A stretch of 64,000 nucleotides of DNA from Actinomycetales bacterium (lineage in GTDB: Bacteria > Actinomycetota > Actinomycetes > S36-B12 > UBA5976): the NCBI GenBank assembly GCA_027484085.1, contig JAIXQF010000004.1, positions 774,162 to 838,161 of the forward strand, written 5' to 3'. The position numbers were made by a program, and so were the translations under genes. The first letter of the stretch is position 1. Each line of letters begins with the position of its first letter. Positions 7,010-20,141 of the stretch are shown in pieces. The notes under the pieces are model-generated. The model was given only the letters and a program-made list of their open reading frames with translations. It made no database searches and was not told the DNA's origin.

Positions 7010-8905
7010 CTACACAATTTCTATTGTGATTAAGGACCCCTTGGGCGCCTTAGATCCAGCTCCTGGTTTTTGCGAATAGACCTTATTCAAGATCGCGATA
7101 GACAACTTGTTCACTGCCTTGACCTGGAAACCTGCTGCCTCCAAAGTTGAAGTAGCAGTTGATGTACTCATTCCAACCACATTTGGAACATCTACAAGTG
7201 GCGGACCTTTACTTACGATTACGTTGATTACAGTTCCCTTAGGGACAGTGGTTCCGGGTGCTGGATCGGTAGAAAGAATTGTTCCGGCCACACTGTCATC
7301 AAAATCTTCCTGAATCGTCTTGGCAGTAAGTCCAAGCGCAGTCAAAGCTGTAGTTGCATCTGTGATCAAAGTTCCAACAATTGGGGGAACGTCAACAGGA
7401 GCGGGGCCCTTAGAAACCAAGATCGTGACGGGAGTCTCTCGTTTGACTGAGGTGCCAGCTATCGGATCTGTGCCAACGACTTTTCCAACCGGAATCAATT
7501 CGTCGAAAACTTCCTTGTTTCCAGAGATCACCAAAGTTAAATCTTCAAGCAAGGAAGCTGCATCCGCAGGATCTTTTCCAGGCAAGTCGGACGGGATTAA
7601 ATATCTTTCTTGACCTTTTGAAACAATCAAGGTCACGGCATTGCCCTTGCGCGCTTTCTCGCCGCTTGCCGGATCTGTTCTAATGATGGATCCAACTGGA
7701 ATGTCTTCCGAAAACTCTTCAACTACTTCCACACCAAGTTCTAGCGGCGCCAAAATCATGGCGGCTTCATCTACTGTCAAGGCAGCAACAGGTGGCACAA
7801 CTTCGTAACTGCCAGCGAATTGATACCAGGCGCCACCACCGACAACTAGCGCCAGCAGTAAAAGTATCGGAGCTAGTTTTCCTCGTATCCCTTTGCGCAC
7901 ATTTGGGCTTTGGATTTCACTTGCACCAGTGCCCACGTTGCGCTCTTGAGCTCGCCTTGGCTGGTTTACTTCACCCTGAAAAGCAAGAGGTGATGCAGGA
8001 ATGATTTGAGTATTTTGCAGGGAAATGGCAGTAGTCAAAGCTTCGGCTCGCGGAACTGCTGAAATTGCTCGGATCACCGCATCGCGAAATTCGCGGGCGC
8101 TTTGAATCCGGTCGGCTGCCGACTTTCTCGTGGCAGCAAGAACTATGTGATCTACAGCTGGTGGAACATCCGGCTGGATTGAGCTGGGTGCGGACACTTC
8201 ACTATTAACGTGCTGATATGCGACTTCAAGTGGCGAGGATCCAGTAAATGGAACTAGCCCGGTAACCATTTCGTACAACAAAATGCCGCAGGAGTAAACA
8301 TCTGACCTTTGGTCCACTGCAAGTTGTTGGACCTGTTCAGGGGACAGGTAAGCCATAGTGCCGAGTAAGACGGCGCCAGTGGAATCACTTACAGGAGTGG
8401 CACTAATCACGCGAGCTAATCCGAAGTCAGTTACCTTTACGTGGCCATCATTTGTGATAAGAACATTTTCCGGCTTTATGTCGCGATGAACGAATCCAGC
8501 ATCATGAGCAGAACTAAGACCTGCTAACACTGAGCTAATGATTTCTAGGGCATGAGCACTAGTAAAAGGACCAGATTGGGCCATGATTTCGCGGATTGTT
8601 CGGCCCTGAACAAACTCCATGACTAGAAATGGGAAGCCTTCACTAATTCCTTGATCGTGAACGGCCACTACATTCGGATGGGTAAGGGCGGCGGTTGCCC
8701 GCGCTTCTTGGGTAAACCGTTCAACAAAACCTGGATCGTTAGCCAGAACTCCGCCAAGAACCTTTAGGGCAACAGCTCGTCCTAGTCGAAGATCGGTTCC
8801 TCGGTACACAGTGGCCATTCCGCCACGGGCAATTAGCTCATCGACGCTATATCGCTGCTCCAAAACTTTCCCCAATAACGGGTCTTGGTTTGGAAAATCA
8901 TTCAC
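7010..8905 (-). CDS. pknL: Membrane Ser/Thr protein kinase with four PASTA repeats (PknL-like)
   Basis: 631 residues in the order kinase, linker, one membrane segment, four PASTA domains. The kinase has the ATP Lys48 (VALKVL), HRDIKPEN (140-147), DFG (160-162) and a TGAVLLGTMAYLSPE activation segment. The membrane helix is at about 344-360. The outer part has four repeats of about 65 residues, each with DPxxG and IVSKG-like ends, which in this family bind peptidoglycan or muropeptides. Position beside aroG and near mptA points to PknL rather than PknB, and no pbpA/rodA partners are nearby. Targets probably include envelope or division proteins, by family knowledge only. Confidence 0.88.
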   Translation of the reverse strand: MNDFPNQDPLLGKVLEQRYSVDELIARGGMATVYRGTDLRLGRAVALKVLGGVLANDPGFVERFTQEARATAALTHPNVVAVHDQGISEGFPFLVMEFVQGRTIREIMAQSGPFTSAHALEIISSVLAGLSSAHDAGFVHRDIKPENVLITNDGHVKVTDFGLARVISATPVSDSTGAVLLGTMAYLSPEQVQQLAVDQRSDVYSCGILLYEMVTGLVPFTGSSPLEVAYQHVNSEVSAPSSIQPDVPPAVDHIVLAATRKSAADRIQSAREFRDAVIRAISAVPRAEALTTAISLQNTQIIPASPLAFQGEVNQPRRAQERNVGTGASEIQSPNVRKGIRGKLAPILLLLALVVGGGAWYQFAGSYEVVPPVAALTVDEAAMILAPLELGVEVVEEFSEDIPVGSIIRTDPASGEKARKGNAVTLIVSKGQERYLIPSDLPGKDPADAASLLEDLTLVISGNKEVFDELIPVGKVVGTDPIAGTSVKRETPVTILVSKGPAPVDVPPIVGTLITDATTALTALGLTAKTIQEDFDDSVAGTILSTDPAPGTTVPKGTVINVIVSKGPPLVDVPNVVGMSTSTATSTLEAAGFQVKAVNKLSIAILNKVYSQKPGAGSKAPKGSLITIEIV

Positions 8906-8985: not shown

Positions 8986-9321
8986 ATGTCTAAGTTTGCT
9001 TACGTAAGCGTGCTTTTGGGCTGCATTCTGGGTACCGCATGGCTCGAAGTTTTTTTGCGAACCAAGGTTTATCGCAGGGCCATTCGGTTGGTACTTACGA
9101 TTCTGCCGGTACTCGTAGTTTTTTCAGTTTGGGATGCGTACGCGATTGCTCAGGGGCATTGGACATTTGACGATCGATACATAACAGGGATCACCACGAT
9201 TGCCAACATCCCACTTGATGAGATTCTCTTTTTTATCATCATCCCTATTTGTACGATTTTGTCGTTTGAAGCAGTAAGAAGTGCGCGCAATTGGGAAGCC
9301 GGGGATGAGCAAGCGAGATGA
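8986..9321 (+). CDS. crtYc: Lycopene cyclase subunit CrtYc
   Basis: 111 residues with three membrane helices. This is one half of the heterodimeric lycopene cyclase found in Gram-positive bacteria, which closes the ends of lycopene in the membrane. The VVFSVWDAYAIAQGHWTFDDRYITGI and IPLDEILFFIIIP blocks are the conserved cyclase-domain signatures. The frame runs open upstream to 8890, but the ATG at 8986 has an AGGAAGAGG ribosome site 4 nt away and gives the family length. It overlaps crtYd by ATGA. Whether the rings are beta or epsilon cannot be decided from sequence. Confidence 0.9.
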   Translation: MSKFAYVSVLLGCILGTAWLEVFLRTKVYRRAIRLVLTILPVLVVFSVWDAYAIAQGHWTFDDRYITGITTIANIPLDEILFFIIIPICTILSFEAVRSARNWEAGDEQAR

Positions 9322-9716
9322 CTTATACCGAGCTGACATTAATCGGAGTAGCGATCGTCATTGCACTGGATTTTTTGGTCTTTAAAACAAAGATTTTGAC
9401 GCGAAGAGTGTTCTGGGTTTCATACTCCATAGTGATTTTCTTTCAATTAGTAACCAATGGAATCCTGACTGGATTTGGAATTGTTGAGTACTCAGGCGAC
9501 GCAATCATTGGATCAAGCACTCCGAAGGATGCGCCACCGACATTTCTGGGCGACGGCCGCATAGTGTTTGCCCCAATTGAAGATTTACTTTTTGGGTTTT
9601 GCCTGGTCGTTCTCACGTTGATTATTTGGGTTTGGCTCGGGCGAAACGGGGTTCAACGTGACCCAAAGTCTGGGCCGCCACGAAAGATTGTCGAGCGATT
9701 CCTGGGAATTAAGTAG
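9318..9716 (+). CDS. crtYd: Lycopene cyclase subunit CrtYd
   Basis: 132 residues with three membrane helices, paired with CrtYc and translationally coupled through a 4-bp ATGA overlap. The VSYSIVIFFQLVTNGILTG segment and VFAPIEDLLFGFCLV block are the second-subunit cyclase signatures, with the acidic PIEDLLF motif thought to be catalytic. Together CrtYc and CrtYd would turn CrtI-made lycopene into gamma- or beta-carotene. The gene ends 8 bp inside the convergent crtB. Confidence 0.9.
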   Translation: MTYTELTLIGVAIVIALDFLVFKTKILTRRVFWVSYSIVIFFQLVTNGILTGFGIVEYSGDAIIGSSTPKDAPPTFLGDGRIVFAPIEDLLFGFCLVVLTLIIWVWLGRNGVQRDPKSGPPRKIVERFLGIK

Positions 9717-10665
9717 TTCGTTTCCAGACTTTTCGCGCTTTCAGATATGCAGGTATCGCCACGGCAAGCCGGCGTCGTAACGAGACAGTCGCTCGCTTAG
9801 TGAAAACTTCGAAATCTATTTCTTCAACCGCATCAACAATTCCACAGTAAAGAATTCGCGCCGTCTCAATGCACGGTTGGGCAGCTTCCCCAAGCATGGC
9901 AATTCCGGCTCGGGAAGATTCTTCAAGTTCGCGAACTCTGGAAATTTGAAACTTCAAAGCGGACTTGATTTCTGGGGTAGCAATTCGCCTTTCAAGATCA
10001 GCGCGCGTTACACCAAAATTAGCCAACTCCTGAAGTGGAAGATAGACGCGACCTCGTTCCAAGTCTTCGCCTACATCGCGAATAAAGTTTGCCAGTTGAA
10101 ATGCCACACCCAATTCAGTCGCATGCTTGTAGGCATCAGGGCTGGTTGGCTCCAAAATCGGAACCATTTGAAGGCCAATTACTGCTGCTGAGCCGTAAAC
10201 ATATTCGTAGAGGTCTTCGTACGTTTCATATTGCGTAACAGTTAAGTCCATCGTCATTGAGTGCAGAAATGCCTCAAAGTGCTCGCGTGGAATATTCCAA
10301 CGTCTTACGGTGTCCAGAACTGCCAGACACACGGGATCATTTGTCTGCCCCGATTCAAATTTTGCTAGAAACCCATCTCCCCAAACTTTGAGTTGTTCAG
10401 CCTTTTGAGAATCAGTAAGCGTCGAAGCTAAGTCATCAACAATCTCATCGGCATAACGAGCAAATCCATAAAGTGCGTGTACGTAGGGACGCTTTGCTGG
10501 TGGCAATAAAAGAGTTGCCAGGTAGTAAGTTTTTCCATGTTCGGCATTTAGCTGGCGACATAATTCGTAAGATGCTCGCAATTCAGGGTCAAATATTCCT
10601 GCTGCATCGAGATCATGTTTAGACACAAACGTAACTATATGCAACCCATCGTCGATCTCACTCAT
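9709..10665 (-). CDS. crtB: Phytoene synthase
   Basis: About 318 residues of a squalene/phytoene synthase that joins two geranylgeranyl diphosphates head to head. Both Asp-rich motifs are present: DEIVDD (73-78) and NFIRDVGEDLERGRVYLP. LYGFARYADEIVD and the YVYGSAAVIGLQM block are typical of CrtB rather than HpnC or HpnD. The frame opens with a TTG at 10668 directly before the ATG at 10665; I take the ATG. The 3' end overlaps crtYd by 8 bp. Confidence 0.93.
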   Translation of the reverse strand: MSEIDDGLHIVTFVSKHDLDAAGIFDPELRASYELCRQLNAEHGKTYYLATLLLPPAKRPYVHALYGFARYADEIVDDLASTLTDSQKAEQLKVWGDGFLAKFESGQTNDPVCLAVLDTVRRWNIPREHFEAFLHSMTMDLTVTQYETYEDLYEYVYGSAAVIGLQMVPILEPTSPDAYKHATELGVAFQLANFIRDVGEDLERGRVYLPLQELANFGVTRADLERRIATPEIKSALKFQISRVRELEESSRAGIAMLGEAAQPCIETARILYCGIVDAVEEIDFEVFTKRATVSLRRRLAVAIPAYLKARKVWKRTT

Positions 10666-10757
10666 CAACCCTTGGTTTGCCTAAAATTCGAAAAATCTAC
10701 TCGTGGCGCGTAGGGTTACTTGGGCACATGGCGTGTTAATTGTTGGTTAGGAATAAT

Positions 10758-11208: not shown

Positions 11209-12744
11209 TTAGGCTAGCTCGCGTTCCTTGGCTGATTCAATTTCAGTTGGAGTAGTAGGCAGCATGTCTTGCTCGGCGCTGTCACCCAATATCAGGGAGC
11301 GTTCAGCGGTAGAGGCGAGCATTACTAAGCCAAGCGTGATGCCAGCCAAGATCATGGCAATGCCATCACTTAGCTCTAGAAACGTATCTGCAGTTGCACT
11401 GGAGTTTGCAATGCCATGAATAGTGAAAGCTGCTATTACTAAAACCATAATTCGAATCTGTTTATGACTTAGTCCAGTTACGGCCAGCAGCGGGATTGAC
11501 CAAAGTAGGTACCAAGGTTGCACTACAGGTCCGAATGCAACGAGTGCGGCAAAGGATAGGGCAACTCCACGAGTGGCGCTCCTGCCTTGTGGTCGGATTA
11601 CGAGCAACACCAGGACAATCGACAACAGAACCGAACCCAGTAAACGTGTGATGCTAACCGAGGCATCAACAACATTCCCAAAACCAAGTAATCGAATTGG
11701 TTCACCAATCAGCAGCCCAAGTGCCGTTGTAGGTGACAACCAGCTTTTCACTGTGCCTGGGGTAGATAGCGAACCAATCCAACCAAATGGTCCCGTTTGA
11801 GCTACTGCGGATGTTATGAAAAGAGTAGATAGTGCAATGGCTCCAGAAATTGCGCTGTACTTCATGCGCCGCATCAAGCTAGCGCCACTTCCGGCCGCGA
11901 TGAGAGCTAGGAACGGAAGCAACACAATTGCAACTGGCTTTATGCCAAGTGCAAGCGTGGCAACAACTACACCGGAAACAAAATGACCGCGAAGCCCCAA
12001 AGCCATCGAAATACAAACTAAGCCAACCATTAGGGCATCGTTATGCGATCCAGCTACAAAGTGCATAAGTACTAGCGGGTTCATGACGCCAATCCAGGCA
12101 GCGGAAACTGGATTTACTCCATGAGACTTAGCTAGGTATGGAATACTCCAACAAATCAATAAGACTCCAATAACCGAAGTCAATCTAAACAAGTAAGAAC
12201 CTGCGAGGGAAGAATCCTGGCTAATTGCCGCAACTGCCTTCTCGATCAAAAGAAAGACCGGACCATATGGTGTTGGAGAATCGCCCCAGAGCGGATCTAC
12301 ACCACTTTGAAACCAGCCAGGCACAACAGCTACACCGGACTCATAAGGGTTTTTTCCGGCAAGCTGTAATTTTCCTTGCATGAAGTAGGAATAGACGTCG
12401 CGGCTAAACAGCGGTGGCGCAGCCAGCAACGGTAAGGCCCAGGCTAGAAGCGAGAAATATATCGTTTCAATGCGCAAAATTTTTCCGTGCAATGCGTCGA
12501 TTCCAACGATTAGCCAAGCTTGGAGAATTAACGCAGCTCCCACAACAACAAACGAACGAGTTAGGGCGAGCCCAATTGTTTCGGTTTGAACGAAGTTGAT
12601 CAGATTCCACTGCAAAATGTCTGCAGATAGCGGAAACCAGCCAACACCTAGCGCGCCAACTGCAATAAACAAAGAGCCGAGAAAACCTGGTAACGCATAA
12701 AGACCAAACCATCCAGGATCTGGGGATACACGAAGTTTTGGCAC
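11209..12744 (-). CDS. mptA: Alpha-(1->6)-mannopyranosyltransferase, MptA/MptB family (GT-C)
   Basis: 511 residues with about 13 membrane helices. The conserved LFSRDVYSYFMQGKL loop carries the Arg-Asp expected at the GT-C catalytic site, followed by NPYESG and SPTPYGPVFLLIE, all typical of MptA/MptB. These enzymes extend the alpha-1,6-mannan backbone of lipomannan outside the membrane from polyprenyl-phospho-mannose. It lies 18 bp after crtI on the same strand, and the GTG start is preceded by its own TATTCT box. In mycobacteria mptA is next to idsA2 and pknL; here carotenoid genes stand between them. Confidence 0.87.
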   Translation of the reverse strand: MPKLRVSPDPGWFGLYALPGFLGSLFIAVGALGVGWFPLSADILQWNLINFVQTETIGLALTRSFVVVGAALILQAWLIVGIDALHGKILRIETIYFSLLAWALPLLAAPPLFSRDVYSYFMQGKLQLAGKNPYESGVAVVPGWFQSGVDPLWGDSPTPYGPVFLLIEKAVAAISQDSSLAGSYLFRLTSVIGVLLICWSIPYLAKSHGVNPVSAAWIGVMNPLVLMHFVAGSHNDALMVGLVCISMALGLRGHFVSGVVVATLALGIKPVAIVLLPFLALIAAGSGASLMRRMKYSAISGAIALSTLFITSAVAQTGPFGWIGSLSTPGTVKSWLSPTTALGLLIGEPIRLLGFGNVVDASVSITRLLGSVLLSIVLVLLVIRPQGRSATRGVALSFAALVAFGPVVQPWYLLWSIPLLAVTGLSHKQIRIMVLVIAAFTIHGIANSSATADTFLELSDGIAMILAGITLGLVMLASTAERSLILGDSAEQDMLPTTPTEIESAKERELA

Positions 12745-12762: not shown

Positions 12763-14295
12763 TTAACGTCGAGCCCGTGATACATAAGACTTGTCTGGTC
12801 CAGTAATGCGCTCAGCCGCAAGACGTCCAGAAACTAGGACCATTGGAACGCCGACACCAGGTTGGGTGCCGGATCCGGTGAATACAACATTTTCACCAAA
12901 CATGTTGCCAGGACGGAACGGCCCAGTTTGCAGAAACGAATGAGCCGCCGCAAACGGTGCGCCTCGTTCCATGCCACGATCTGACCAATCTTGCGGTGTT
13001 GTTATGTGTTCAACTTCAATGGCATCACCAAACCCGGTGTAGCCACGAGCCTGCAGAGTTTCAATTGCGTGATCACGATATGCCGGCGCTTGCTGTTTCC
13101 AGTCAATGTCTGCATCGAGGTTAGGGGTAGGGAATAGGACGTAATAGACCTGCTTTCCGTCAGGAGCTAATCCGGGATCACTAAACGTTGGATTGGTTAC
13201 CAAGACGCTTGGATCAGACATCAATTGCTTTTTGTCAATCAATTCCTCAAAGACGCCGGCCCAACTATGGCCAAAGTGAATGTTGTGATGCGCAATGTGG
13301 TCGTACTTTGCTGATGAGCCAGCAAGTAGCAAGTAGCAAGACGGTGAGTACTTAAGGCGCTTAACACTCCATGGCTCTTTGCCGAGCAAATCGCGGTAAG
13401 CAACTGGTAGATCAGGGTTCAAAACAACAACGTCTGCAGCGTAGAACTCACCGTTGCTGGTTTCTACTCCAGTTGCACGGTTACCATTCATTCGAACTTT
13501 GGATACTTCTGTGTCGTACTTGAACTTCACACCGTGCTTCGCTGCCGCATTTGCCATTGCAACAGGAAGGGCATGCATGCCGCCCTTAGGTGCAAAAACT
13601 CCAGCAACGGAATCCATGTAGGCAATTACGGCATAAATTGCTAAGGCGTCATAAGGAGATAAACCGGCGTACATAGATTGGAATGAAAACACTCGCTGAG
13701 TTCGGTCATCCTTTAGGTACTGTCCAACTTTTGGAGCAAGTTTTCTAAAGCCGCCAAGCTTTATTAGTCGAACCAGGTCCATGGACAAAAGATCCAATGG
13801 AGAGTCGATGTTGCGATCAATAAAATTTTTCATTTCGTACTTGTAGAGATCAGTTACAAAATCTACGTACTTCAAGTAGCCATCAGCTTCGCTGGCGCCA
13901 ATTACCTTCTCAATTTCGGCAGCCATAGCTGCGGTGTCTGAATGCACATCTAAAACACTGCCGTCTTGATAAAACGCTCGGTACAGCGGAGCGACAGGTT
14001 CTAGCGTGAGCCAGTCATTCATGTCTTCGCCAAGGCAATCAAAGGCATCAGCAATCAAATCTGGCATAGTCAAAACGGTTGGACCAGTATCAAATTCAAA
14101 GCCCCGATCGCTGATACGACCAGCCCTTCCGCCAGGGATGCTTTCACGCTCAATAACAGTGACATTGCGTCCTGCGCCAGCGAGGCGCATGGCAGCAGAT
14201 AATCCGGCTAGCCCAGCGCCAACAATTACGACATCATCAGTTTTACCCGTAACGGTTCGGGGAGACCCTGGAATCCATCGCGAAAAGTTGCTCAT
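12763..14295 (-). CDS. crtI: Phytoene desaturase
   Basis: 510 residues of an FAD-dependent CrtI-type desaturase/isomerase that turns phytoene into lycopene at the membrane. The N-terminal dinucleotide fold reads VVIVGAGLAGLSAAMRLAGAG followed by ERESIPGGRAG and DTGPTVLTMP. The C-terminus carries FTGSGTQPGVGVPMVLVSGRL, the CrtI signature. Start is ATG at 14295, just 2 bp after the crtE stop codon, so the two are almost certainly co-transcribed. Length and motifs suit a four-step desaturase, but the number of steps is not readable from sequence. Confidence 0.93.
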   Translation of the reverse strand: MSNFSRWIPGSPRTVTGKTDDVVIVGAGLAGLSAAMRLAGAGRNVTVIERESIPGGRAGRISDRGFEFDTGPTVLTMPDLIADAFDCLGEDMNDWLTLEPVAPLYRAFYQDGSVLDVHSDTAAMAAEIEKVIGASEADGYLKYVDFVTDLYKYEMKNFIDRNIDSPLDLLSMDLVRLIKLGGFRKLAPKVGQYLKDDRTQRVFSFQSMYAGLSPYDALAIYAVIAYMDSVAGVFAPKGGMHALPVAMANAAAKHGVKFKYDTEVSKVRMNGNRATGVETSNGEFYAADVVVLNPDLPVAYRDLLGKEPWSVKRLKYSPSCYLLLAGSSAKYDHIAHHNIHFGHSWAGVFEELIDKKQLMSDPSVLVTNPTFSDPGLAPDGKQVYYVLFPTPNLDADIDWKQQAPAYRDHAIETLQARGYTGFGDAIEVEHITTPQDWSDRGMERGAPFAAAHSFLQTGPFRPGNMFGENVVFTGSGTQPGVGVPMVLVSGRLAAERITGPDKSYVSRARR

Positions 14296-14297
14296 GT

Positions 14298-15365
14298 TTA
14301 TGCCGATCTTTTGGTAGCGAGAATTGCTAGCTCAGTTAACGCAACCTTGGCTTCAGGATTTTCCGAAAGTGCATCGAGTGATGCCAAAGAAGTTTCGAGA
14401 TGGCTTGCTATTTGATTCTCTACGAAATCCTGGGCTCCGCAACTTGTGAGTAAATCTTGAAGTTGGGAAATCAACTGACTGGTTAGTGACGGGTTACCCA
14501 GATTCTCGAGCAGAAAAGTCTTTTCTGCCTCAGTTGCATTCGAAGTTGCAAATGCGATCAGCATAGTTTGCTTGCCCTCGCGTAAATCGTCACCAGCAGG
14601 TTTTCCAGTGATCGAACTGTCGCCAAAAACACCAAGCAAATCATCACGGAGTTGGAATGCTGCGCCAAGAGCTAAGCCGTATTGGCTCAAAACTTCAATA
14701 AGTTCAGTGGAGGCACCTGCAAGTGCAGCGCCCAAGTGCAGCGGGCGCTCAATGGTGTACTTCGCACTCTTGAATCTAATTACCGTTTCAGCCCGCGCGA
14801 TATCTATGTCACCACGAACCTGTTCCAAAAGGTCGAGGTATTGTCCGCACATTAATTCCGTGCGCATAACGTCATAAACTCCTTTGGCACGAAGTAGTTG
14901 GTCGTTCGAAAGCCCACTGGTGAGCAACATTTCATCAGCCCAAGACAAGGCCAAGTCACCAACCAAAATGGCAGCACCTTCTCCAAAAAGTTTTGCAGAG
15001 CCGTTCCAGTTATTAGTTAGGTGAGTTGTCTCGAACTGTTTATGAACGGCGGGCTTACCTCTTCGAGTGTCACTTGCGTCCATGACGTCGTCGTGGATCA
15101 GGGCGCAGGCTTGCAAGAACTCTAAACTCGCACAGGCGCGCATTACGGCATCGGAATCTTCTCCACCTGCTGCTTTAAAACCCCAATACGCAAAGGCTGG
15201 ACGCAACCTCTTGCCTCCTGCCAACAAGCCTTCAAGTGATTCAATTAGAGGCAAGGTATCGGGGGAGGCACTTTGCATTAGTGGCTTGCGGTCAGATACA
15301 AAAGAATCGAGATTGGACTGAATGCTTGCTCTTAGCCCATTTGCGTCTAACGGATTAAATTCCAC
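14298..15365 (-). CDS. crtE: Geranylgeranyl diphosphate synthase (IdsA/CrtE type)
   Basis: 355 residues of a trans-prenyl diphosphate synthase. The first Asp-rich motif is DDVMD (92-96) in ALIHDDVMDASDTRRG, GKRLRP (51-56) binds the diphosphate, and the second motif is QLRDDLLGVFGD. It would extend isopentenyl diphosphate to C20 for CrtB. In mycobacteria the equivalent position beside mptA holds idsA2, so this could be the ancestral IdsA2 that also serves polyprenyl carriers. GTG start, 6 nt after a TAGCCT box; first gene of crtE-crtI-mptA. Confidence 0.9.
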   Translation of the reverse strand: MEFNPLDANGLRASIQSNLDSFVSDRKPLMQSASPDTLPLIESLEGLLAGGKRLRPAFAYWGFKAAGGEDSDAVMRACASLEFLQACALIHDDVMDASDTRRGKPAVHKQFETTHLTNNWNGSAKLFGEGAAILVGDLALSWADEMLLTSGLSNDQLLRAKGVYDVMRTELMCGQYLDLLEQVRGDIDIARAETVIRFKSAKYTIERPLHLGAALAGASTELIEVLSQYGLALGAAFQLRDDLLGVFGDSSITGKPAGDDLREGKQTMLIAFATSNATEAEKTFLLENLGNPSLTSQLISQLQDLLTSCGAQDFVENQIASHLETSLASLDALSENPEAKVALTELAILATKRSA

Positions 15366-15426: not shown

Positions 15427-16068
15427 ATGTCGTTTGAAGAATATCTAGGTCATTGGGCACGACTGCATGGCACGCCACTTCCACAAGGCCTGGTTCGAGT
15501 TTGGCTCCGAATAGCTTTTGTAGTTTCAACGCCATTTACTCGATTAAACCCAAATGCAATAACTGGGTTTGGACTCCTGCTGATGTTGGCAGCAATCTAT
15601 TTTGCGGGATCAGTTAATGGTAATTATTTTGTAGCGAGTGGCTTGGTGCTTTCCGTTGGCATCGTCGATAGCCTCGATGGCATAGTCGCGGTTAGAACTT
15701 CAAAAATCAGTTCATGGGGCGCATTTCTCGATTCTGTAGTGGATCGATTCATCGACGTTGGAGTTGGAATTCTACTTATCGCACTTGGAGCTTCTATTGA
15801 GCTTGCCGTCATCGCATTTGCGATTGCTTTCGTGCATGAATACATGAGAGCAAAGGCAAGTGGAATCGGACTGCGTGAAGTTGGAGTTATCACTCCGGCT
15901 GAAAAGCCGACACGGATTGCAATTGGCGTAATGTTCCTGGTTGCCTGCGGGGTTTTTCCGGAGAAAGCGGCCCAACTGGCAAACATCGCTGTTCTGGTTT
16001 GGGTGACTCTAGGTGTGTTTAGCTTCGCGATCTTGATGCGCACGTTTAGAAAAACTCTAAAGTCCTAG
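15427..16068 (+). CDS. CDP-alcohol phosphatidyltransferase family protein
   Basis: 213 residues with about six membrane helices. These enzymes exchange the CMP of CDP-diacylglycerol for an alcohol. The catalytic motif is present but altered: after the conserved DG comes IVAVR, so Val takes the place of the usual Arg after Ala and Arg moves one step on; the later G-AFLD-SVVD acids are intact. The C-terminal ITPAEKPTRIAIG block resembles archaetidylinositol/PIP-synthase-like members. The substrate cannot be assigned; a PI-related role would suit the PIM genes nearby. It is divergent from crtE and convergent with the crtD-like gene. Confidence 0.75.
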   Translation: MSFEEYLGHWARLHGTPLPQGLVRVWLRIAFVVSTPFTRLNPNAITGFGLLLMLAAIYFAGSVNGNYFVASGLVLSVGIVDSLDGIVAVRTSKISSWGAFLDSVVDRFIDVGVGILLIALGASIELAVIAFAIAFVHEYMRAKASGIGLREVGVITPAEKPTRIAIGVMFLVACGVFPEKAAQLANIAVLVWVTLGVFSFAILMRTFRKTLKS

Positions 16069-16077
16069 AGAGCTTCC

Positions 16078-17574
16078 TTAAGCGCGACCGATGTGGTTTG
16101 CCACGATTTCAGCCGACATTCCCACAAGCGGTAACCCGCCTCCAGGATGTGATGATCCACCAACGAGGTACAAATTCGGGATCTTCGTGACGTTCTCTGG
16201 TCTAAGGAATGCCGAGCGCATGCCATTACTGGAAGTTCCATATATTGAGCCGCCTGGCGCCAAAGTATTTCGCTCTAACTCATCGGGCGTAATGGCGCGC
16301 TGCAATGCGATGCGGCCTTCGGTTTTCAAGCCTAGCTTTTGAAGAGCCGACAGAATTTGCTCGGTATACGAATCTTTAAGTTCAGGGTCTGACCAGTTAA
16401 CGCCGTTATCTGGATCGTGGCGTGGCGCATTGATCAACATGAACCAAGACTCGTTACCTTCCGGCGCCATTTTGGCATCGTTAGGGGAGCAAATGTAGAT
16501 GGTGGGATCTGCAACTGGCGTAACTTTCTTACCGATACCGAAAATCGAATCAAACTCATCGTCGTAGTTTTCTGGAAAAAATACATTGTGATGCTCGAAG
16601 TCTTCAGTCTTACCGGTCATTGCCTGCAAGATTACAAAACCGGATAGTGACGGAGTTGCCTTTGCAAGTGATTTTTTAGCCGACTTTGTACGCTCCTGTG
16701 CAACAGGACTTAGTAGATGTTGATACACATTTGAGGCATCTGAATTGGCCACGACTATATCCGCCGCAATAAATCTTCCGTCTTCTAGAGTTACGCCCGA
16801 AACGTTAGGTTCAGTTGCAATATTCACCACCGTGCACCCAAATTCAAATTGCACTCCAATGGAGTACGCACGTTCATAAAGTGCCCTGCCGAGCTCACGG
16901 AGTCCACCATTGACGTGATACGCACCAAACATTTGCTCAATGTAAGGAACGGTCGCAAGCGCTGCTGGAGCTTGACGCGGATCAGACCCGGTGTAGGTGG
17001 CGTAGCGGTCTACGAGCGTTACTAATCGGGGATCAGAAAGATAGTGACTTGCTAAGTCTCGTAATGATTTAGTTGGCGCAATTGTTCGGATGTCATTTAC
17101 ACGCCAAGACAATGCAAGCAGACTGCGTAAACCATGCAGCTCTGATTCTAAGAAAGGCTTTCGGGTGACAGACCACATTTGCGCCGCGCGACGCATAAAG
17201 TTTCGCCATTGATCGGCACTTGTACCACCTAAAGAATCGCCTATGGCTTCGGCACAACGACCAATGCCGGTTCCTGGCATCTTTAACACTGTGCCATCAG
17301 CAAATTGGTACCTAAACGCAGTCTCCAAGTCGACAATGTCAATTGAATCTTCGAGTGCGGCCCCAGTCTTCAAGAACAAGTCGCGATAGACGGCTGGCAA
17401 AGTCAACAAACTTGGCCCGGTATCAAATTTGTATTCAGCATGTTCGGCGTATCCGAGTTTGCCACCCCAAGTTTCGTTATGTTCCAGAACTCTTACGGCG
17501 TGACCCTTACTTGCAAGTCTGGCGGCGCAGGCCATGCCACCCATGCCAGCGCCGATAACAATAATGTTTGCCAC
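16078..17574 (-). CDS. CrtI-family carotenoid desaturase/oxidase (CrtD-like)
   Basis: 498 residues of an FAD-dependent CrtI relative, distinct from the phytoene desaturase at 12.8 kb. It has IVIGAGMGGMACAARLASKG at the N-terminus, WGGKLG, DTGPSLLTLP, and a C-terminal GGSSHPGGGLPLVGMSAE. It is the last gene of crtA-cruF-cruG-crtD, 4 bp after the glycosyltransferase. Beside a CruF-like hydratase, the best guess is a 3,4-desaturase of the open carotenoid end (CrtD). CrtP-like oxidase activity, as in staphyloxanthin synthesis, is the main alternative. Confidence 0.8.
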   Translation of the reverse strand: MANIIVIGAGMGGMACAARLASKGHAVRVLEHNETWGGKLGYAEHAEYKFDTGPSLLTLPAVYRDLFLKTGAALEDSIDIVDLETAFRYQFADGTVLKMPGTGIGRCAEAIGDSLGGTSADQWRNFMRRAAQMWSVTRKPFLESELHGLRSLLALSWRVNDIRTIAPTKSLRDLASHYLSDPRLVTLVDRYATYTGSDPRQAPAALATVPYIEQMFGAYHVNGGLRELGRALYERAYSIGVQFEFGCTVVNIATEPNVSGVTLEDGRFIAADIVVANSDASNVYQHLLSPVAQERTKSAKKSLAKATPSLSGFVILQAMTGKTEDFEHHNVFFPENYDDEFDSIFGIGKKVTPVADPTIYICSPNDAKMAPEGNESWFMLINAPRHDPDNGVNWSDPELKDSYTEQILSALQKLGLKTEGRIALQRAITPDELERNTLAPGGSIYGTSSNGMRSAFLRPENVTKIPNLYLVGGSSHPGGGLPLVGMSAEIVANHIGRA

Positions 17575-17578
17575 AGCC

Positions 17579-18673
17579 CTACTTTAGGTCCCTTGATTTC
17601 CAAGTGTTGGTCCCGGCTATGTGGCGCCCCCACGAAACTACGTTTAGAAATACAAAGATAAGTATCGAGATTGGATGAAGAAGCGAGTCGGGGAGCAACT
17701 TGCTTTTCGATGACTGCGCAGAAACTAGTCGACTCATTATTCCAAATGCCAGCCCTAAAGTTGCAAGAAGATTTTCTCCGATTGCAAAACCAGCGAGTGG
17801 GTAAACATAAACAAACAAAAAGAACAGATTTACAAACAATGATCCGATCGGTCCGCCAAAAGCGTTCCAAAGACTTTTGGAATATCCAGAAACAAGTGCC
17901 TGATTTGATTCATACATCTGGCAGGTTGCGATGTCGGAGCCATCAATTACACATCCAGAGAATCCATTTCGATAGAAGGCCCTTAACAATGCAATGTCAT
18001 CGAGCACTTCACCCTTGACTGCTTGGTGGCCTCCGCTGATTCGGTATGAATCTGCGCGACACACTAGAAACTGCCCGTTGGCAACCGCAAGGCTTGGTCG
18101 CTTAGTTGATCGAGTTGCGCGTAGTGGCACTGTTGTAAGCCAAGACCATTGCAGTAGCGGCTGAATGAGTCGAGCAAGCCAGATGGGTGCGATCTGCTTG
18201 GGGTAGGGACTAACTAAATGAAGCTGATTCTGGGTAAGCGCTGTAATCGCACTTGCTACTGCGCTCGGCTCGAGAGTCACGTCACTGTCGATAAAGACGT
18301 AGAAGTCGACGTCAACACTTTCGGTCAGTCGATGGCATGCCCAATTCTTTCCCAGCCACCCTTCAGGCAAGTCAGGTTCGCCGTTGATAATCGTAAGTCT
18401 TTGATCGCTGAACTCGAGTAACTTTTGTGCCGTTGCATCTGTCGAAGCATCATTCAAAACAACAACCTCAAAGTTATCTAATTGCACTTGAGCCAGGGCG
18501 CTGCGAACGGCAGTCGTGATTGTGTTTTCTTCGTTGCGTGCCGGAATTAGAATTGCAACTTTTTCTGAAATCTGACCTGGCTTTGCTCGAATCAAAAAGA
18601 GCTGATTGACGATCGTATTTAGCGTCAGCAGCAGTGAGATAACTACCGCAATAGTGATCAACGTCGTTGCCAT
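17579..18673 (-). CDS. GT2 carotenoid glycosyltransferase-like protein (CruG/CrtQ type)
   Basis: About 364 residues: an N-terminal membrane helix, a GT-A domain and two to three C-terminal helices. GT2 marks are VAILIPARNEE, VVLNDASTD, GWLGKNWAC, the metal-binding DSD in FYVFIDSDVTLEPS, and a QXXRW-like region near the end of the domain. GWLGKNWAC occurs in CrtQ, CruG and HpnB-type enzymes. The ATG at 18673 overlaps the cruF-like gene by 16 bp; the frame extends to a TTG at 18688. Lying between cruF- and crtD-like genes, it would plausibly attach a sugar to the hydroxylated carotenoid. Sugar and position are unknown. Confidence 0.78.
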   Translation of the reverse strand: MATTLITIAVVISLLLTLNTIVNQLFLIRAKPGQISEKVAILIPARNEENTITTAVRSALAQVQLDNFEVVVLNDASTDATAQKLLEFSDQRLTIINGEPDLPEGWLGKNWACHRLTESVDVDFYVFIDSDVTLEPSAVASAITALTQNQLHLVSPYPKQIAPIWLARLIQPLLQWSWLTTVPLRATRSTKRPSLAVANGQFLVCRADSYRISGGHQAVKGEVLDDIALLRAFYRNGFSGCVIDGSDIATCQMYESNQALVSGYSKSLWNAFGGPIGSLFVNLFFLFVYVYPLAGFAIGENLLATLGLAFGIMSRLVSAQSSKSKLLPDSLLHPISILIFVFLNVVSWGRHIAGTNTWKSRDLK

Positions 18674-19449
18674 AGCATCCAAGACCAAGGGATTAACACG
18701 ATTCCCATTCCGATAAAGCCAGATACCGCGACTGCCGGCTGATTAAAGAATGGCGACATCGGAACAATGTTTACTAGGAAGCTACCGAGCCAAACCCAAA
18801 ACATGAGCAGGTACGGCGTGAAGTTTGATGCGTGCTTGGATACGGGATTCAAGACGAGAGCCAGTAGAGCGAAGATTGCGGCCGTCGAAATAAACCAACC
18901 AAAGAAATTGGTAAGCGGGATCTCTTTAGTTGCTATTCCATCAATGAACCAAGTCCAATAACCTTCGTTTACCATTTGCGGATCCAAGTAGAGATCCCAT
19001 GTTGACATCAACAAGGCACCGGTCGGGATGGTTAAGAATCTAGATTTGAATAGCGAATTTGAAACTAGCCACGATGGGTAGAGCATCATGAACCAAGCAA
19101 AGGGAATCAGCAGTGGAACCCCTAAGACAGTAAAGCCAAGACGCTCGAGGTCGTATTCATAAGTTCCAAATGGAAAATTGGTGGCAACGCCAATTGCTTC
19201 GATTACGAAGGTTGCCATTAGCGCGACCAATAGAAACTTGATCAAAAAAGTTCTGCCGTAAGCGGCATAAGCATGTGAACCTGATGCCGTTGCAAATGCT
19301 AATACTCCAACGATTGTTGTAGCGTCGCGTAATCCATTAGATGTAAGTGCCCACAAGATTTGCACCAGAATTGTCACCACAGCCGCGACTAACGAAATCT
19401 TCAGCGCTCGACTTGTTGGCAGGTTCAGTTTGTACACAGCAAGGTTCAC
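18658..19449 (-). CDS. cruF: CruF-family carotenoid 1,2-hydratase-like membrane protein
   Basis: 263 residues with about seven membrane helices. EAIGVATNFPFGTYEYDLERLG, VPLLIPFAWFMMLYPSW and the acidic STWDLYLDPQMV block are the conserved DUF422/CruF motifs. Known members add water to the terminal 1,2 double bond of gamma-carotene or of bisanhydrobacterioruberin. No lycopene elongase (UbiA-type, needed for C50 carotenoids) is in the window, so a C40 substrate is favoured. GTG start with a 4-bp GTGA overlap with crtA; overlaps the glycosyltransferase by 16 bp. Confidence 0.83.
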   Translation of the reverse strand: MNLAVYKLNLPTSRALKISLVAAVVTILVQILWALTSNGLRDATTIVGVLAFATASGSHAYAAYGRTFLIKFLLVALMATFVIEAIGVATNFPFGTYEYDLERLGFTVLGVPLLIPFAWFMMLYPSWLVSNSLFKSRFLTIPTGALLMSTWDLYLDPQMVNEGYWTWFIDGIATKEIPLTNFFGWFISTAAIFALLALVLNPVSKHASNFTPYLLMFWVWLGSFLVNIVPMSPFFNQPAVAVSGFIGMGIVLIPWSWMLWQRR

Positions 19450-20141
19450 TTAGTCAATTTCGAGAAATCAATGCCTGCGAAGGTTCCAGATGCTTCAATG
19501 ACTTTGAATCGGGCGAACAATTCTTCGGAATACCATCCCGTCTCATGAGTTCTGGCGATGACATCTGCATGAGGCTTTTGTTTACTTGAAAAAGCGGTGA
19601 TGCTTTCATTTGTTTGCCAGACACTAAATGTGCCTTGCAGCCCGATCGGAGCCTCGCCAATTCCCAGACTCGTGATCAGGCCAGCTGATGCATTCAGATC
19701 TTTTGATACTGGCGGCACACTGCGCCAAAATTCTCGCCACCACCGCGGTTTGATTGCAGCTCGCGTAAGGGCAGCGGTTAGCCCATCCCATTTCTCGGGA
19801 ACTGGATTTCCAAACGGTGTCTTGCCAGCCCAGGTTCCTTTAGCAGAAAGTGGTTCAAGTTCTATGTGGGCCTGCGCCGTTGCGATCTTCTGCCATTGCT
19901 TCGCTGGCTTACTGCTTAGGTAAGCGGTGCAATCTGCCTGAGTTTCCCAAACCGACAAGACGCACCAGTGGCTTGGGTCAGCATCCCGAACCGTGAATGT
20001 CTTGCCAGAACCTGTGCCCATCAATTTATAGAAGGTAAGGCCAGGAGATTTGCGCATTGAACTTCGTTGTCGCGCCATAAGCGTGAACGCAATCGGAATA
20101 TGTCGATTGCTAACTTTGGTTATATCTAGGCGAACAAACAC
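19446..20141 (-). CDS. crtA: Spheroidene monooxygenase-like carotenoid oxygenase (CrtA family)
   Basis: 231 residues of an alpha/beta-barrel, haem-type CrtA relative. Family blocks visible are MARQRSSMRKSPGLTFYKLMGTG, the AD-x-HWCVLSVWE segment, and a second half-repeat with GLQGTFSVWQT. CrtA from purple bacteria puts a keto group at C-2 of acyclic carotenoids; homologues elsewhere act at other end positions. It is the first gene of the four-gene tailoring operon and starts with GTG 7 nt after a TAAAGT box that overlaps the ybaK stop codon. Regiochemistry is unknown. Confidence 0.8.
   Translation of the reverse strand: MFVRLDITKVSNRHIPIAFTLMARQRSSMRKSPGLTFYKLMGTGSGKTFTVRDADPSHWCVLSVWETQADCTAYLSSKPAKQWQKIATAQAHIELEPLSAKGTWAGKTPFGNPVPEKWDGLTAALTRAAIKPRWWREFWRSVPPVSKDLNASAGLITSLGIGEAPIGLQGTFSVWQTNESITAFSSKQKPHADVIARTHETGWYSEELFARFKVIEASGTFAGIDFSKLTK

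Follow-up and report, generated by a model that had tools for sequence, protein, structure and literature searches.

The locus described here raises the question of which carotenoid is finished by a group of four adjacent genes that encode relatives of CrtA, CruF and CrtD together with a GT2 glycosyltransferase. The genes lie in a 64,000-nucleotide stretch of DNA (the window) from an actinobacterial genome of 1.80 Mb with a completeness of 98.4 %. The closest relatives that carry names are MAGs titled Candidatus Nanopelagicales or Actinomycetota, which are presumably freshwater bacteria, judging by isolate names and by what is known of the order.

Gene content of the locus

All four open reading frames are present, and they are arranged co-directionally and compactly on the minus strand in the order crtA, cruF, GT2 gene and crtD (Table 1). 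An overlap of 4 bases joins crtA to cruF; cruF in turn overlaps the GT2 gene by 31 bases from the TTG start (18688) or by 16 from an in-frame ATG (18673), and a gap of 4 bases separates the GT2 gene from crtD. The tight packing described in the original prediction is therefore real, with junctions of 4-31 bases. Candidates for lycopene supply, cyclisation of one ring, 1'-hydroxylation, 3',4'-desaturation, 2'-hydroxylation and glycosylation, as far as their predicted functions go, are all found within 12 kb. For crtYc, the start given is the ATG at 8986, and the listed open reading frame begins at 8890.

Table 1. Predicted genes of the carotenoid locus and its neighbours, with positions in the window
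Feature	Position	Strand	Size and evidence
crtYc lycopene cyclase subunit	8986..9321	+	PF18916 3.6e-10; TIGR03462 2.1e-19
crtYd lycopene cyclase subunit	9318..9716	+	TIGR03462 4e-9
crtB phytoene synthase	9709..10668	-	PF00494
MptA/MptB-like polyprenol-phosphate mannosyltransferase	11209..12744	-	NF038066 192.6 bits (over cut-off); TIGR03459 244 bits (under)
crtI phytoene desaturase	12763..14295	-	TIGR02734 506 bits
idsA/crtE prenyl diphosphate synthase, precursor supply	14298..15365	-	PF00348; NF042416 331 bits
CDP-alcohol phosphatidyltransferase, divergent to crtD	15427..16068	+	PF01066
crtD-like 1-hydroxycarotenoid 3,4-desaturase	16078..17574	-	498 aa; NF045637 352 bits
GT2 carotenoid glycosyltransferase, separate clade, not CruG	17579..18688	-	PF00535; trees
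cruF-like carotenoid 1',2'-hydratase, membrane protein	18658..19449	-	263 aa; PF04240 115 bits
crtA-like carotenoid oxygenase, read as putative psi-end 2-hydroxylase (CrtA-OH)	19446..20141	-	231 aa; NF045923 173.6 bits

The gene for the MptA/MptB-like mannosyltransferase starts 18 bases after crtI, and most relatives belonging to the genus, as well as members of two other families, have it in the same place. The enzyme may use the carotenoid glycoside as a substrate, or it may have nothing to do with it.

Assignment of the hydratase, desaturase and oxygenase

The four proteins match their families with E-values of 3.8e-51 (CrtA, NF045923), 5e-33 (CruF, PF04240), 3.3e-17 (GT2, PF00535) and 3.4e-105 (CrtD, NF045637). 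All of them remain under the NCBIfam equivalog cut-offs, and their names therefore hold at the family level. The CruF-like label given originally agrees with a PF04240 score far above the cut-off of 25 bits. For this protein the family is clear from sequence and the subfamily is not, the best NCBIfam match being the bisanhydrobacterioruberin hydratase model TIGR03460 with 100.5 bits, which is below its cut-off. The acidic residues E84, D152 and D156 are widely shared.

The second CrtI-family protein had been called CrtD-like, which is confirmed by the model scores and the tree. The CrtD model outscores the crtI_fam model (316 bits) for this protein, and the reverse applies to the CrtI of the window. 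In a tree with some long branches, it groups with an annotated purple-bacterial CrtD (Roseinatronobacter) with a support of 100/100, and CrtI is placed on the opposite side, also with 100/100.

The CrtA-like label likewise stands at the family level, since the similarity to NF045923, although below the cut-off, spans the whole length of the protein (residues 17-223 on positions 19-225 of 226). Identities are 35-41 % to CrtA of Nonomuraea and Deinococcus and 32-38 % to purple spheroidene monooxygenases. In the CrtA tree, which includes no Bacteroidota CrtA-OH sequence, the protein branches apart from purple CrtA; comparisons with Bacteroidota CrtA-OH and with function-proven CruG were made by HMM scores. 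CrtA-OH is a known carotenoid 2-hydroxylase (PMC11855829), and judged by its sequence the window protein is best read as a putative psi-end 2-hydroxylase of this type.

An alignment of CrtA from Actinomycetota, Deinococcus and purple bacteria has 29 invariant columns, and these contain one histidine, His190 (numbered without the start Met). A structure model built from 11 sequences, with a pLDDT of 79 and weak around residues 190-205, matched aldoxime dehydratases best (Z 13.0, 218 residues, rmsd 3.7). The next unrelated structures followed at Z 9.6, with ABM-type ferredoxin-like domains lower in the list, and a sequence search of the PDB with CrtA gave no match. Aldoxime dehydratases contain haem that has a histidine as axial ligand. 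Because the modelled fold resembles theirs, it is a reasonable guess that His190 binds haem.

A CrtA homolog annotated as hypothetical was also found on the Deinococcus taeanensis plasmid p_TS293_5 (L074, 7869-8654), with no further annotated carotenoid gene within 8 kb.

Two classes of glycosyltransferase

The GT2 had been named CruG on account of the motif GWLGKNWAC. The motif is indeed present, but its key residues P108, W111 and K114 are common to 27-28 of 28 GT2s from carotenoid clusters, which are of several kinds. It therefore does not identify CruG, and the assignment by this motif was rejected. The CruG model (NF045692) reaches 99 bits over residues 6-292 of the window GT2, compared with 92 bits for HpnB, and for relatives of the window type, within the order as well as from other classes, the scores are 96-118 bits with CruG and 96-138 bits with HpnB.

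In the trees, the window GT2 falls into a clade of its own, apart from the CruG-type GT2s. The latter comprise the GT2 of Nonomuraea and those of five other actinobacterial clusters, which form a separate clade (SH-aLRT 100); full-length matches to the CruG model gave 218-275 bits for the four of them that were scored. Phylogeny, proposed at the outset as a check of the assignments, thus united CrtD with CrtD and did not unite the GT2 with CruG. From the scores and clades of both sets it follows that two GT2 classes serve otherwise equal CrtA/CruF/CrtD sets, which offers a way to find the enzyme that sets the position of the sugar.

A more far-reaching reading would make the window GT2 a distinct actinobacterial class of carotenoid glycosyltransferases that replaces CruG, or is replaced by it, and that transfers another sugar or joins it at another site. 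With the MptA/MptB-like mannosyltransferase lengthening the sugar, an undescribed glycoside of abundant freshwater bacteria would result; this combination is rather unlikely. An acyltransferase was considered as a missing fifth gene, and none is present within the window cluster. Acyltransferase genes do occur near the GT2 in clusters of Deinococcus, Cytobacillus, Gluconobacter and Thermus.

Predicted product and position of the sugar

The four genes probably finish an orange monocyclic C40 carotenoid, with a plectaniaxanthin (deoxymyxol) glycoside of the phleixanthophyll/sioxanthin type as the predicted product. Plectaniaxanthin and deoxymyxol are the same compound. In the proposed pathway, IdsA/CrtE, CrtB, CrtI and CrtYc/Yd would supply monocyclic gamma-carotene, whose open psi end would be hydrated by CruF to carry a 1'-OH. 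CrtD would then add the 3',4' double bond, giving 1'-hydroxytorulene, and the CrtA-type enzyme would hydroxylate C-2' to form plectaniaxanthin (C40H56O2), to which the GT2 would add a sugar last. We infer the order of the steps, every enzymatic step, the sugar with its position, and the role of the pigment.

The ring would be left unmodified by any recognised linked enzyme, so the glycoside of plectaniaxanthin itself is expected. Ring enzymes of the CrtZ type (PF04116) and the CrtW/CrtR type (PF00487) were not found in the genome, and both models matched control genomes. Three P450s are encoded elsewhere in the genome and could modify the ring. The computed masses are 568.428 for the aglycone, 730.481 for a hexoside and 714.486 for a deoxyhexoside. 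A 'secondary carotenoid branch' with genes for a complex carotenoid was reportedly described by Dwulit-Smith in 2018 for acI Actinobacteria of the same freshwater order, and the prediction provides a concrete product of calculable mass for a carotenoid branch in freshwater Nanopelagicales.

The original proposal of a glycosylated, 2-oxygenated, 1-hydroxy-3,4-desaturated monocyclic carotenoid is the best reading in view of the family matches, the CrtD tree and a precedent from Nonlabens. The accompanying statement that no pathway with this set had been described was too strong, since CrtA-OH was already known and CrtY, CruF, CrtD and CrtA-OH of Nonlabens convert lycopene to deoxymyxol in E. coli (PMC11855829). 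The myxol pathway of Nonlabens spongiae and Flavobacterium P99-3 (CrtY, CruF, CrtD, CrtA-OH and CrtZ), with deoxymyxol as an intermediate (PMC11855829), shares the action of CruF, CrtD and CrtA-OH on the psi end of gamma-carotene. However, it includes CrtZ and lists no glycosyltransferase in its cluster, whereas the window has no PF04116 CrtZ, carries a GT2 gene between cruF and crtD and encodes CrtYc/Yd as its cyclase in place of CrtY. Several points count against the preferred reading. The four proteins score below the equivalog cut-offs, CrtYc/Yd can make bicyclic beta-carotene, which weighs against a purely monocyclic output, and the predicted glycosylation depends on an uncharacterised GT2 clade.

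Phleixanthophyll of Mycobacterium phlei carries a 1'-glucosyloxy, 2'-hydroxy, 3',4'-didehydro end group. It has also been reported from Nocardia kirovani (PMC5822342), and sioxanthin, from the actinomycete Salinispora, has a 1'-glucosyl end group with the sugar on C-1' and a free 2'-OH (PMC8469146). Both are C40 compounds with the 1'-glucosyloxy-2'-hydroxy-3',4'-didehydro end predicted for the window; they are likened to its product by structure, and the ring of sioxanthin is an aromatic phi ring, unlike that of the prediction. The cyanobacterial myxoxanthophyll pathway (CruF, CruG) shares a CruF-family hydratase and a GT2 with the locus, but the window GT2 lies outside the CruG clade and the window also has CrtA. 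By analogy with these compounds, attachment of the sugar to C-1', as in sioxanthin, appears slightly more likely than attachment to C-2', as in cyanobacterial myxoxanthophyll.

A possible but less probable product has the same aglycone with the sugar attached to the CrtA-derived C-2' oxygen, an arrangement known from the myxol 2'-glycosides of cyanobacteria. This position had been assumed originally, and the assumption loses its basis because the GT2 does not belong to the CruG orthologs. In its favour, all examined clusters link CrtA with a GT2, which would be expected of an acceptor at the 2'-OH, and CruG is still the top NCBIfam match of the window GT2. Against this stand the placement of the GT2 outside the CruG clade, an HpnB score that is close for the window protein and close or higher for its relatives, and the C-1' sugar of sioxanthin.

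Role of the pigment and the opsin

The likely role of the predicted glycoside would be that of a polar-headed antioxidant or stabiliser of the membrane. The genome also encodes a xanthorhodopsin-type opsin (locus L002, G000:C3:434182-434829), and the pigment could, compatibly with the preferred structure, serve as its light-harvesting antenna, although this seems unlikely. Glycine G147 of the opsin is retained and aligns with G178 of Gloeobacter rhodopsin, which we take to be the carotenoid-side opening, and a related actinorhodopsin binds a host carotenoid (PMC8113403). However, the opsin gene is about 350 kb away from the cluster, and opsin and CrtA each also occur without the other. Among 60 genomes, 23 have both opsin and CrtA, 10 CrtA alone, 12 the opsin alone and 15 neither, and 7 of the 10 CrtA-bearing genomes (33 in total) in which no opsin was detected are at least 95 % complete. 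Pigment and opsin are thus not bound to each other. Membrane protection is taken as the default role, and some species may use the pigment as an antenna.

Neither Blh, whose model matched 6 of 60 relatives, nor RPE65 was found in the genome. Retinal for the opsin must therefore come from outside or from an unrecognised enzyme, and beta-carotene or retinal as the purpose of the cluster was rejected. The 'actinobacterial carotenoid' of Aquiluna, with m/z 591.4946 and absorption at 472/501 nm (PMC8113403), was considered as a match. Deoxymyxol would have a fitting chromophore, but C40H56O2 as a sodium adduct has m/z 591.417. The link was dropped because of this mismatch of 0.08 Da and because a C50 gene is assigned to Aquiluna.

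Less likely products

Should CrtA be a 2-ketolase like its purple-bacterial counterpart, a 2-oxo-1-glycosyl carotenoid would be formed. The protein belongs to the spheroidene monooxygenase family, and NF045923 is its sole NCBIfam match, yet its low identity to purple CrtA, its separate branch, and the better fit of hydroxylated actinomycete end groups to a set that includes a glycosyltransferase make ketolase activity improbable. Equally improbable is an acyclic tetrahydroxy carotenoid diglycoside, formed by action on both ends of lycopene with crtYc/Yd as a separate beta-carotene branch. CruF and CrtD work on psi ends, of which lycopene has two, and the subfamily of the best CruF match, TIGR03460, is active on both ends. 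However, the retinal-forming enzymes searched for were not found in the genome, leaving a separate beta-carotene branch without obvious use, and in the window, as in several relatives, crtYc/Yd adjoins crtB.

A C50 product was rejected because neither the window nor the whole genome contains a lycopene elongase. Their neighbours, MenE and CtaA, identify the two UbiA proteins of the genome as MenA and CtaB, respectively. The absence noted originally for the window thus extends genome-wide, and the argument drawn from it against C50 carotenoids holds as far as a 98 % complete genome can show. The bacterioruberin-type C50 pathway shares the best CruF match with the locus and differs by its elongase.

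Conservation of the four-gene module

CrtA is present in 33 of 60 genomes of the order, and crtA, cruF, the GT2 gene and crtD keep their order and strand in all 19 order-level loci from several families, two of which (L036 and L048) are cut by contig ends. In most of these loci, idsA and crtI come next where the contig extends far enough. In a phylum-wide sample, 27 of 396 genomes have CrtA, and it is accompanied by CruF, GT2 and CrtD in all 20 loci examined, as it is in Nonomuraea gerenzanensis; the 20 loci are mostly better-scoring CrtA matches, the weakest being outside this statement. The module thus recurs in 39/39 CrtA loci inspected across Actinomycetota. The gene order of the window is found in 15 of the 20 phylum-wide loci, and the other five are ordered differently.

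The enzyme types and the type of product are already known, whereas no description of the four genes being linked phylum-wide, or of two GT2 classes, was found in the literature examined. It is less expected that the four genes stay together throughout the phylum and that an enzyme other than CruG adds the sugar. As a linked module, they are candidate genes for phleixanthophyll-type pigments across Actinomycetota.

Clusters from other classes of actinobacteria have a gene for a CrtO-type ketolase (223-264 bits, below the cut-off) inserted between crtA and cruF, as in L118, L119, L123 and L132 and also in L122, L124, L125, L127, L128 and L131. 4-Ketophleixanthophyll occurs in actinomycetes, and the insertion suggests natural 4-keto variants of the predicted carotenoid.

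Of the 19 order-level loci, 16 have a divergent CDP-alcohol phosphatidyltransferase gene beside crtD, as have 11 of the 20 phylum-wide loci; every cluster with this gene has a GT2 of the window type. An additional gene in the interval between the GT2 gene and crtD of L050 and L051 is on the opposite strand and D-Ala-D-Ala dipeptidase-like, and it was set aside. Finally, a MAG titled Bifidobacterium breve (L066, CAMBGF010000030.1) contains a Nanopelagicales-type cluster with a CrtA that is 72 % identical; its label looks wrong, as the content does not fit this species.
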